Translations under genes and position numbers: made by a program
The notes under the pieces: model-generated
The model's database searches: none
What the model was told of the DNA's origin: nothing
Seen by the model: only the letters and a program-made list of their open reading frames with translations
Source of the DNA: a virus
Length of the DNA stretch: 24,257 nt
Virus record (IMG/VR): IMGVR_UViG_3300023178_000262
Location: 1-24,257 of that record
Direction: 5' to 3' (one strand)
In this document: positions 6,389 to 13,374 of the stretch, piece after piece
Layout of the letters: the number at the start of each line of letters is the position of its first letter
How positions within the stretch are numbered: position 1 is the first letter of the stretch

Positions 6389-7398
6389 TTACAGTAACCT
6401 TTTGCCATAACTTCTGCCTTGGTATTATTATCCACTGCAAACTTAATTATACTTTTTATAGTAAACAGTTTTCCATATGCTTGTACTGCATCATTTGCAT
6501 CTTTAACCCCATCGTCCCAGGGCGGAAAACTAACCATCCAGTTACGTTTAATAGCCTGCCTAACCAAACGCATACTGGCTTTATCTGCATCAGGCAATAG
6601 TATAATACGCTTGCCTAATTTTTCAATAATTTTAGATTGGTCTAAACTCATGCTATTACTGCCAATAGCAACTCCACCAATACTTAGCGCATCTAACTGT
6701 CCTTCTGTCACAATAACAAAACGGTTTTCAGCATGTTGGTTATCTAATCCATAAACAAAGTTTTTAGGTTGTTGTACATAGTACTTGGGTGTTTCTTTAT
6801 TTGGCACATCGCCAATCCAACGTGCAGTATACCCTACAACTTTTCCTTTGTAATAAAACGGAAGTATAACACGACTTTTAAAATGACTAAATGTACTGTA
6901 TTTCCAGTCTGGATAATCCAGTAAACTTCTATCACTTAAAAACTCACATGCACTGACAAACTTGGGCAGTTCTTTTTCACTAAGTTCAGCAGTGTGTAAA
7001 TCTTGTGTTTGAGCTGGCAGTGGTATTTCTGGCCAGTCAATTTTAACTTCTTTATCTTCCGTTTTCTTTTTAATAAGCAGTTCAGCAGTATCTCGCTCAC
7101 GCATAAGTTCAATCTGCAAACGATGTATTTCACTACTATCTGCACCAAACACACCGTACAAACGCTTTAAACGCCCGCTGAGTTGCTTGCCTTCACTCCA
7201 GCCTGTACTATAGCCACAGTTAAAGCAGTTGTATCTGAACTTGTCTTCTTCAAAATAAAAACCACCACGCTTTTTTGTATCTGGTCTGCTTTGTCCATTC
7301 TGTACACACATAGGACAATTACCACTGGTCCAGCCTGTGCCAGTAGTTTTCCAATTAACGGGGATCAGATTTTTAGTGAACTCAAGGACCAAATGCAT
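6385..7398 (-). CDS. 61: DNA primase, T4 gp61-like
   Basis: The 337-residue product makes RNA primers for lagging-strand synthesis in complex with the gp41 helicase. A zinc-binding N-terminal region has CPMC (Cys28, Cys31) and CFNC (Cys58, Cys61). The TOPRIM catalytic domain shows VTEGQLDAL with Glu232 and LLPDADKAS with Asp270 and Asp272. The length matches T4 gp61 (342). The start codon follows a consensus early promoter so closely that the mRNA is predicted to be leaderless; GGTGTT lies before the ATG but is too close to act as a usual ribosome site. The promoter overlaps the stop codon of the upstream structural gene. Confidence 0.92.
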   Translation of the reverse strand: MHLVLEFTKNLIPVNWKTTGTGWTSGNCPMCVQNGQSRPDTKKRGGFYFEEDKFRYNCFNCGYSTGWSEGKQLSGRLKRLYGVFGADSSEIHRLQIELMRERDTAELLIKKKTEDKEVKIDWPEIPLPAQTQDLHTAELSEKELPKFVSACEFLSDRSLLDYPDWKYSTFSHFKSRVILPFYYKGKVVGYTARWIGDVPNKETPKYYVQQPKNFVYGLDNQHAENRFVIVTEGQLDALSIGGVAIGSNSMSLDQSKIIEKLGKRIILLPDADKASMRLVRQAIKRNWMVSFPPWDDGVKDANDAVQAYGKLFTIKSIIKFAVDNNTKAEVMAKGYCK

Positions 7399-7404
7399 AA
7401 CACC

Positions 7405-7433
7405 ATATTAACGTCTATAGTGTATTTTGTCAA
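7405..7433 (-). promoter_or_regulatory. Early sigma70-type promoter of the primase-helicase operon, leaderless
   Basis: The minus strand has TTGACA (7433-7428), a 17-base spacer and TAATAT (7410-7405), then exactly six bases before the ATG at 7398. With a -10 box at -12 to -7, +1 is the A of the start codon. The promoter lies within the last codons and stop of the structural gene. Confidence 0.75.
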
Positions 7434-8583
7434 CCCTTCCAACAGTTAAAGTGAATTTAAATCTAACGAACATAAACATACCATCTGTTTGGTATGCTTC
7501 TGTACCTGTCTTGTTTGCTACTTTAATTTCTTTGTTATATCCACAAACTTGCGGAACATCAAACCAATCTGCATCGCTTGTAGGATTAGGGCTCAGTGTA
7601 CCTTGCATCTGTACTGTACCAGTAGCACCACCAGCATATGTAACACTGAATGTGTTAATACCGCCGCAGTTTGCTACGGTGCTTGCTGGACCTTCAAAAG
7701 GCTCTGTTACAATTGTGTATACACTTGTATTAGGTGTACCAGTAACAGTGTATGTCTGGATTGCACCAGTTGAATCAACACTGTCAACTTGTATGCGCAA
7801 ATCGTTTACACCACGCACACCACCCAGTTGATCACCAGTAACAAGAATTACATCACCAACTTGATAGCCTGCACCTGCTGAAACAAATGTTATATCATAT
7901 ACAAAGTTAGCATTGATTACAAATGATACGCCTATACTAACATTAAAGACTGCACCACAGCCAGAACTAAGTCCCAGTGCTACATTTAAGTTAACGCCTA
8001 CCATTAGACTAAAGGTAATATCTACACTGAGTGTTGCAGTTAGTGTAATTGACCAATAACTACTTGTAATACCCAGTGGGTAAACTGTATCGTCTGGATC
8101 TTGTAAACCAAGTGCATAGTCACTGTATGCTGACTGTGCATCCATATGCATAGGACCACAATCGTCTACAACTTCAGCAACATAGCAATAACGGTAGTTT
8201 GCGTCACTGTGAAGTGCATGTACACGGTTTAGTTCATCTTGCCAAGTTAACAAGATATCATAAAACCCAGCACCCATGTTTGCAATATCACCTGGAGAAA
8301 GATGTAGTGTTGCAACACCGTTTTTGACATCCTGTACACGTAAATTCTTTTGTACTAATACGTGATGTCCGTCATGCTTCATTACAACTGCTTTGATTGT
8401 TTTATCGTGCAATTGTATTTTGCATCCGTTTACATCACGAATAAAAAATGTGATAACTGTATCAACACCCTTTAAGATTTTAAAAGGCTTGTAATTGCTT
8501 GGTTGATTCCTTGTAGTGCCTGTACGTTTGCCAAGTACTACGTCACCACGCTGACTGTAAATATATCCGGTACCTTGTGTCAT
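7408..8583 (-). CDS. Virion structural protein, probable tail or baseplate component
   Basis: The 391-residue product has a beta-rich N-terminal domain (about 30-115), with a pattern like baseplate or fibre attachment domains (FKILKGVDTVITFFIRD to GAGFYDILLTW). A run of alternating hydrophobic strands follows (about 173-230, Ser/Thr/Val/Asn-rich). Next comes a repeat-type module seen in marine phage structural proteins (about 236-285, GYQVGDVILVTGDQLGG with NDLRIQV). The C-terminal domain ends MFVRFKFTLTVGRVDKIHYRR, of the kind found at the ends of phage tail proteins. Start support is GTAGGAGAAC before the ATG and a late octamer at 8610-8603. The exact position in the virion cannot be read from sequence. 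Confidence 0.8.
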   Translation of the reverse strand: MTQGTGYIYSQRGDVVLGKRTGTTRNQPSNYKPFKILKGVDTVITFFIRDVNGCKIQLHDKTIKAVVMKHDGHHVLVQKNLRVQDVKNGVATLHLSPGDIANMGAGFYDILLTWQDELNRVHALHSDANYRYCYVAEVVDDCGPMHMDAQSAYSDYALGLQDPDDTVYPLGITSSYWSITLTATLSVDITFSLMVGVNLNVALGLSSGCGAVFNVSIGVSFVINANFVYDITFVSAGAGYQVGDVILVTGDQLGGVRGVNDLRIQVDSVDSTGAIQTYTVTGTPNTSVYTIVTEPFEGPASTVANCGGINTFSVTYAGGATGTVQMQGTLSPNPTSDADWFDVPQVCGYNKEIKVANKTGTEAYQTDGMFMFVRFKFTLTVGRVDKIHYRR

Positions 8584-11888: not shown

Positions 11889-13339
11889 TTTCTATAATCT
11901 ACTTTAGTTATAGTATACGGATATTCTGCCTCTTTATAGAACTTCTTACGCTCACGCAGGTGCCGTTTACTGAATTTAGCAGTGCTTGCAATATCCCAAA
12001 TTTGCACACTGTCTTTATCTTTTGCTTTACGTATGCCACGTCCAATACTCTGGATAACACGCACAAAGCTCTTGCCTGGTTCTACCAGTACAAGATTAAA
12101 AATTCTGGGAATGTTAATGCCTACAGCCGCCACGCCATAAGTTGCAATGATGATTTTATTATCAGCACTGCTGACTTCATCATATTCATCTTTGCGGTCT
12201 TTACTTTTCATAGCACCGCTAATAAACACAGTTTCCTCAGGCAATCTTTCCATTAGCCCGTGCCCTGCGCTTAATCTGTCAACCAATACAAGAGTATTTC
12301 CATCAACTGCTAACCCTTTAACCAACTTGGCCATGTAGTCCAGTCGTTGTTTGTCAGTAGTCAAGTACTTTAGCTCTTCTTGATAATTACTGTATTCCGC
12401 AGTGTCTTGCATCTGAAGCACGTTTACTTCACACTGTGCAAGTACACCCATGTCTTGTAACTCACTTGCGGCTAGTTTGTTTACAACCTGCCCCAGTGTA
12501 ATTGTTAGTCCTATCTTGTCTGCATCGTCTTTGGGGATAGTACCAGTTAGTCCCCAACGGATAGGAACACGAGCAAATGCTCCTGTTAATAGTTTCTTTA
12601 AGACGTCTGCTTTTGCTTGGTGTACCTCGTCAACAATAACACACTGTACATCTTGTGCAAAGTCCACAATACTCAAGTCGCTCTTGCCATCACGGAATTG
12701 TTTCTCCATGCTGTTTAAACTTTGCCATGTACAAATAGTATGTGTTTTGCCATACTCTTTACGGTCACCAAAATACACACCAACATCCAAACCCAAGTTG
12801 ATGTAATCTGCTTCTGTTTGTACAACCAAGTCCTTGTTGGGTACGATTACAATACTGCGCCCATATGGCTCAATAAGGTTACTTAGTGCGGCTGTAATCA
12901 GTGTCTTACCAGCACCAGTTGCAATCTCTTGCAAACATTGTGGATTGGCTAAAAACTGATTGATAATCTCTACTTGATAGTCACGCAGTACAACAGGCTC
13001 ACCTGCCGCTGGGTGCTTTTCAGGCCATAGTTTATCACTAAAATGTTCTGCTGTAATCTGTGGAAAATCCAAGTTAATTGGTGTGCGTAAATCTTCTATA
13101 TCAACCTGATAGTTTTCCTGTAACAGGATTGGAAGTATTTCTTCCAATAGATTAATGTATGTACTACCACCCACGTTAAAGTAATTGACCTTGCCATCCC
13201 AACGACCCAGTTTATATGCAGGCACATGATAGGCATAAGGCAACATAAAGCTGAACTTGTTTACTAGTTTGCGTCTAGTATCCAGGTCCAAACCTTCTAT
13301 TTTACAATTTACTTCATCTTTTAAAATAATTTTTGCCAT
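11885..13339 (-). CDS. uvsW: DNA/RNA helicase UvsW (superfamily 2)
   Basis: The 484-residue product resolves branched DNA and R-loops, and in T4 it switches replication from origin-dependent to recombination-dependent. The N-terminal domain (1-100) carries RWDGKVNYF, as in T4 UvsW. The SF2 core has ATGAGKT near 140-146 (motif I), IVDEVHQAK with DEVH near 236-239 (motif II), LTGTIPKDD (motif III) and IQSIGRGIRKAKDKD (motif VI). The length is close to T4 UvsW (about 500). The promoter is a consensus early promoter placed so that the mRNA is predicted to be leaderless; no ribosome site precedes the ATG. It is the first of six coupled genes. Confidence 0.93.
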   Translation of the reverse strand: MAKIILKDEVNCKIEGLDLDTRRKLVNKFSFMLPYAYHVPAYKLGRWDGKVNYFNVGGSTYINLLEEILPILLQENYQVDIEDLRTPINLDFPQITAEHFSDKLWPEKHPAAGEPVVLRDYQVEIINQFLANPQCLQEIATGAGKTLITAALSNLIEPYGRSIVIVPNKDLVVQTEADYINLGLDVGVYFGDRKEYGKTHTICTWQSLNSMEKQFRDGKSDLSIVDFAQDVQCVIVDEVHQAKADVLKKLLTGAFARVPIRWGLTGTIPKDDADKIGLTITLGQVVNKLAASELQDMGVLAQCEVNVLQMQDTAEYSNYQEELKYLTTDKQRLDYMAKLVKGLAVDGNTLVLVDRLSAGHGLMERLPEETVFISGAMKSKDRKDEYDEVSSADNKIIIATYGVAAVGINIPRIFNLVLVEPGKSFVRVIQSIGRGIRKAKDKDSVQIWDIASTAKFSKRHLRERKKFYKEAEYPYTITKVDYRK

Positions 13340-13345
13340 ACTAGT

Positions 13346-13374
13346 AATATAATGATTTCCATTTAGATTGTCAA
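13346..13374 (-). promoter_or_regulatory. Early sigma70-type promoter of the uvsW operon, leaderless
   Basis: The minus strand has TTGACA (13374-13369), a 17-base spacer and TATATT (13351-13346), then six bases (ACTAGT) before the ATG. The predicted +1 is the A of the start codon. It directly follows the terminator-like hairpin at 13384-13406. Confidence 0.78.

Follow-up and report, generated by a model that had tools for sequence, protein, structure and literature searches.

Genes and promoters in the window

The window, analysed over its full 24 kb (24,257 nucleotides), is a fragment of an uncultured virus, a large marine phage (IMG/VR record IMGVR_UViG_3300023178_000262). Its minus strand carries the following features:

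13384..13407, minus strand: terminator-like hairpin, GGGGGGACTG-GAAA-CAGTTCCCCC, directly 5' of the uvsW promoter
13346..13374, minus strand: predicted early sigma70 promoter of uvsW (TTGACA 13374-13369, 17-nt spacer, TATATT 13351-13346)
11885..13339, minus strand: UvsW-like DNA helicase, 484 aa, predicted leaderless, ATG 13339-13337 (Helicase_C; phrog_16; UvsW_N)
11388..11888, minus strand: conserved 166-aa gene (phrog_11279), ATGA overlap with the uvsW stop, predicted to be coupled
11382..11410, minus strand: third promoter (TTGACA 11410-11405, 17-nt spacer, TATTAT 11387-11382, then N5 and ATG 11376)
10915..11376, minus strand: 153-aa gene, predicted leaderless (phrog_11758, E=2.7e-24)
7405..7433, minus strand: predicted early sigma70 promoter of primase (TTGACA 7433-7428, 17-nt spacer, TAATAT 7410-7405)
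6385..7398, minus strand: gp61-like DNA primase, 337 aa, predicted leaderless (phrog_47 DNA primase, E=1e-36)
6101..6388, minus strand: 95-aa gene, 4-nt overlap with the primase stop, predicted to be translationally coupled
4710..6101, minus strand: replicative helicase of the gp41/DnaB type, last gene of the primase operon, sharing 1 nt (TAATG) with the 95-aa gene

The exact pattern TTGACA-N17-TANNNT-N6-ATG occurs twice in the whole window, at primase (7433-7396) and at uvsW (13374-13337). Both elements had been reported in a preliminary description, together with the lack of a ribosome site at a usual distance, and indeed no Shine-Dalgarno (SD)-type site was found at that distance before the window primase or uvsW. 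The description counted two such genes. Both are confirmed, but the count is three: the 153-aa gene at 11376 was overlooked because its final spacer is 5 nt. When up to two mismatches are allowed, the window contains 15 matches, compared with 5.6 +/- 2.5 in shuffled sequence (0 of 100 shuffles reach 15). In the window and throughout the family about 6-7 nt separate the -10 box from the start codon, with TANNNT near -12, as is typical of leaderless genes.

Three other early genes, cited earlier as having ordinary leaders with GGAG-type sites, were found to have them:

promoter at 20326: gp32, ATG 81 nt past the -10 box, GGAG
promoter at 15291: 232-aa gene, ATG 27 nt past the -10 box, GAGG
promoter at 16201: 141-aa gene, ATG 33 nt past the -10 box, AGGA

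Position of start codons behind the promoter

In an AT-rich genome with many TTGACA promoters, two exact cases, which is all that the window alone offers, could be chance juxtapositions. The comparative counts contradict this. In 1.4 Mb of relatives, deduplication leaves 119 TTGACA-N17-TANNNT sites. Of these, 31 have an ATG at exactly offset 6, while the other offsets hold 0-7; stricter deduplication gives 29 of 117. Family loci with N16 or N18 spacers have no offset peak, and -35 boxes with one mismatch give a weak offset-6 signal (12 vs about 5). The start codons at offset 6 are ATG (29), GTG (3) and TTG (1), so that the peak exists for ATG only and barely for GTG, in keeping with the AUG start of leaderless mRNAs.

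The distance from the -10 box to an ATG that opens a reading frame was scored at 132 sites from 11 distinct records. It was 5-7 nt at 34 sites, 8-12 nt at one and 18-40 nt at 41. The distribution is therefore bimodal: a gene is either leaderless in type or has a leader of about 20-40 nt. Order-2 Markov shuffles of the 11 records gave a mean of 0.05 per set and a maximum of 1 at 5-7 nt, against the 34 observed. An SD motif accompanies 33 of the 38 leadered starts with offsets of 18-38.

A whole-record count, proposed in the preliminary description, likewise revealed an excess in 14 relatives: 46 hits at N5-7, 6 at N10-12 (4 of them later ATGs of N5-7 sites) and 2 when the pattern is reversed. 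No such excess is seen in ten other phages, among them T4, KVP40, S-PM2, P-SSM2, HTVC008M and phiKZ (12 vs 9), and it thus belongs to the lineage of the window phage. Scans of the whole virome returned at least 120 matches at N6 and at least 120 at N12, numbers that are not comparable with each other. Sites inside the loci from these scans are biased by the pattern used to select them, and because the loci share ancestry the counts are not fully independent. With a peak at a single offset, shuffles near zero and conservation in diverged relatives (see below), chance is an extremely improbable explanation.

Conservation in relatives

Both genes keep the spacing in relatives. Within the close clade, 29 of 31 uvsW loci measure 35 nt (N6) from the first T of the -35 box to the A of the ATG, and the other two measure 36 nt (N7). 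In primase this distance is 35 nt in all 14 loci measured, and N6 is found in 25 of 26 loci, down to about 33% protein identity. The most distant primases (~33%) retain TATACT or TATAAT with N6-ATG and have a weaker -35 box. Across the 31 uvsW loci, identity is 97% in the -35 box, 78% in the -10 box and 100% in the ATG, compared with 37% for the upstream sequence, 38% for the spacer and 45% for the last 6 nt ahead of the ATG. For uvsW and primase together the ranges are 97-100%, 78-85% and 100% for the three elements and 37-54% for the non-coding parts. No SD motif was detected in promoter-bearing uvsW or primase loci of relatives. The preliminary prediction of leaderless mRNAs for primase and uvsW gains support from this conservation and from the counts in relatives.

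In a UvsW tree of 46 rows the arrangement requires four changes, as opposed to 14 in shuffles. One clade of 20 rows (support 96/95) is leaderless-type throughout, and some lineages carry uvsW without the promoter-ATG arrangement. In Pseudomonas phage PA5oct the primase would begin with GTG at N6, an exception to ATG, and the exonuclease with ATG at N7; the predicted transcript starts lie at about 145890 (primase) and 158242 (exonuclease) of NC_071039.

Dozens of uncultured relatives share the arrangement. The genes that recur as leaderless-type in the family are uvsW, primase, the 153-aa gene and, in relatives, a PD-(D/E)XK exonuclease; most are enzymes of DNA replication and recombination. 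Two further leaderless-type starts are found in one record alone (G004:14417-14454 and G004:63535-63572), in front of a gene resembling deoxynucleotide kinases and of an unknown 117-aa gene, which suggests that the class differs among phages.

Choice of start codon

The promoters might be real and the true start codons lie further downstream, behind normal leaders. For uvsW and primase this fits poorly. Their relatives align from residue 1-3, and in the UvsW_N match, which stays under the cut-off, residues 7-81 pair with profile positions 7-80 of 81, so it begins at residue 7 exactly where the profile is at position 7. Codons 2-15 of uvsW are more conserved at positions 1 and 2 (0.65) than at position 3 (0.41). 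A later in-frame ATG does not appear until +93 in uvsW and +87 in primase, and neither has an SD site. The 153-aa gene offers a case for a downstream start: it has an in-frame ATG 30 nt downstream, after the purine-rich AAAGAAGAA. Its orthologue in a related record (G002) has N6 spacing and keeps the N-terminus. This gene is less surely leaderless than primase and uvsW. Overall, downstream starts appear very improbable.

Transcription from upstream

The genes could also be read from long mRNAs made at upstream promoters, with their starts reached through coupling or through initiation that is independent of SD sites (S1/A-U-rich). The promoter-like sequence would then be incidental or the source of a minor extra transcript. 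The primase locus invites such a reading. Its ATG (7398-7396) lies 9 nt past the stop codon of the upstream gene and has an in-frame stop just 12 nt upstream; the -35 box sits within the final codons of the upstream gene, the TAA stop of which begins the -10 box. The predicted coupling is also tight in the neighbouring operons. With the promoter inside the end of that gene and no strong terminator before it, primase could certainly be transcribed from upstream too. However, in four relatives (L089, L095, L102 and L111) the primase promoter lies outside the upstream coding sequence, and its spacing and boxes are still kept. The -35 boxes are also 97-100% identical, in contrast to about 40% for the flanks.

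At uvsW, the 10-bp, G-rich hairpin (13407-13384) parts the gene from its upstream neighbour and is predicted to insulate it from upstream transcription. Several other clades have hairpins at the equivalent place before the uvsW promoter, which likewise argues against long mRNAs as the main source. Taken over both loci, that explanation seems distinctly unlikely. The hairpins of these clades are unrelated in sequence, as if the insulator had been exchanged between clades with its position kept.

Lineage of the phage

The preliminary description called the phage T4-like. Its UvsW is closest to those of jumbo phages: Sinorhizobium phage Phosso (58%), then Agrobacterium phage Atu_ph07 and PA5oct (both 52%). 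The gene order terminase - gp32 - uvsX - uvsW - ... - structural gene - primase - gp41 is common to the window, Phosso, Atu_ph07, PA5oct and RaK2, and the primase-helicase order is found in PA5oct, RaK2 and Phosso. On these grounds "T4-like" holds for the core genes but not for the lineage: the phage groups with the jumbo myoviruses and, by nearest relatives and gene order, falls outside Tevenvirinae. UvsW relatives were also found in two metagenome-assembled genome (MAG) contigs. One of them (L419, 73%), from a marine gammaproteobacterial MAG, has the same promoter-ATG arrangement as the window. These contigs may be binned virus, and for this reason they give no host assignment.

A 191-aa protein in the operon of the 153-aa gene (9684-10259) has a match in phrog_11778, a family of phage DNA polymerases, and a weak one to the finger domain of DnaE (Pol III alpha). 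The Phosso gene at the corresponding place is annotated as DnaE-like.

Leaderless early transcription as the probable explanation

Primase and uvsW, and with less certainty the 153-aa gene, very probably represent leaderless early transcription of a conserved replication and recombination set. This reading is favoured because of the exact geometry, the statistical excess, the conservation over diverged flanks and the presence of SD sites behind the other early promoters. Host sigma70 RNA polymerase would use the near-consensus early promoters, and standard sigma70 geometry places the 5' end of the transcript at the A of the AUG; +1 would be that A or lie within 1 nt of it. The resulting mRNAs would presumably be read by 70S ribosomes without SD pairing, a kasugamycin-resistant mode of translation in leaderless mRNAs. 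Such mRNAs can bind 70S ribosomes directly (reviewed in PMC9031893). The 5' coding ends of leaderless-type genes are less structured than those of SD-led genes (-2.4 vs -4.0 kcal/mol, p=0.0006), partly due to lower GC (0.31 vs 0.36). This weaker structure, the use of ATG and the absence of SD motifs are each compatible with leaderless initiation, short of proof.

Every predicted leaderless start heads an operon in which each later gene overlaps the stop before it by 1-4 nt (primase-95 aa-gp41; uvsW-166 aa; 153-219-191-228 aa), and one such start may supply several replication proteins via coupling. A likely purpose would be to make catalytic replication enzymes at a low, constant rate that depends on no SD site; gp32 and other abundant proteins would instead rely on long leaders with GGAG.

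A bolder version is doubtful: primase-helicase, UvsW, the exonuclease and the operon of the 153-aa gene would form a dedicated translational class, apart from the SD-led early genes, that responds to a phage-made change of the ribosome, such as incorporation of a phage bS21 or a shift in initiation factors, and acts as a replication switch. Homologues of bS21 (PF01165) occur in 6 of 11 family records (G001, G002, G003, G004, G007 and G009), including all four longer than 70 kb, and in Phosso, Atu_ph07, PA5oct and Pelagibacter phage HTVC008M. RegB and RegA (PF10715, PF01818), which shut off early mRNAs in T4 and were considered as a reason for SD avoidance, had no match in 16 records, which are mostly fragments and in which the positive controls were also silent.

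Comparison with known systems

The T4 proteins encoded by genes 61 and uvsW are homologous to those described here, but TTGACA-N17-TANNNT-N6-ATG does not precede either gene, and T4 uvsW has AAGG before its start. The late promoters of phiKZ are possibly similar and were not used as evidence. In phage lambda the leaderless mRNA is that of cI, transcribed from pRM. It was in lambda that the first leaderless mRNA was found (PMC3160421). The two systems share a sigma70 promoter with +1 at the A of the AUG (in the window, as predicted from sequence), but in lambda it serves a single repressor gene of a temperate phage and here a group of early replication genes in a jumbo phage. Thermus phage phiYS40, likewise tailed, has leaderless mRNAs, and during its infection IF2 is reported to rise and IF3 to fall (PMC3594737). 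Thermus, however, uses leaderless genes widely; in the window phage they would be a conserved minority beside SD-led early genes, and the isolates of its lineage infect proteobacteria.

The same sequence signature marks TA-led leaderless genes of bacteria, in which TANNNT precedes the start by about 12 bp (PMC3160421), and Deinococcus-Thermus genes, in which a -10 motif adjoins the open reading frame (PMC12340547). The cases described here differ: they also keep a full consensus -35, they belong to a virus and they form a gene-specific class. AR9 is also a jumbo phage, but it has its own RNA polymerases and its mapped promoters give leaders of 26-491 nt; the authors of that work describe phage transcripts as often leaderless (PMC5312081).

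Leaderless phage mRNAs are thus already known, and the new element is a deeply conserved, gene-specific set that is predicted to be leaderless. The open-access papers searched yielded no report of such a replication set or of leaderless transcripts in this lineage. Earlier examples concern single genes or hosts that use leaderless mRNAs everywhere. A replication and recombination set that is predicted to stay leaderless over large divergence, beside SD-led early genes in one genome, makes the purpose of leaderless initiation testable by comparison.

Gene callers misplace leaderless-type starts, and two primases serve as a warning. In Salicola phage SCTP-2 (L421) the gene is annotated from 160281. 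Homology extends to an ATG at 160185, which is residue 1 of the alignment and lies 6 nt past a -10-like TAGCAT that has TTGACA 16 nt before it; the annotated gene probably begins 96 nt too late. The PA5oct primase is annotated 6 nt upstream of the predicted GTG. As the host of PA5oct is P. aeruginosa, a laboratory test is possible in this phage.
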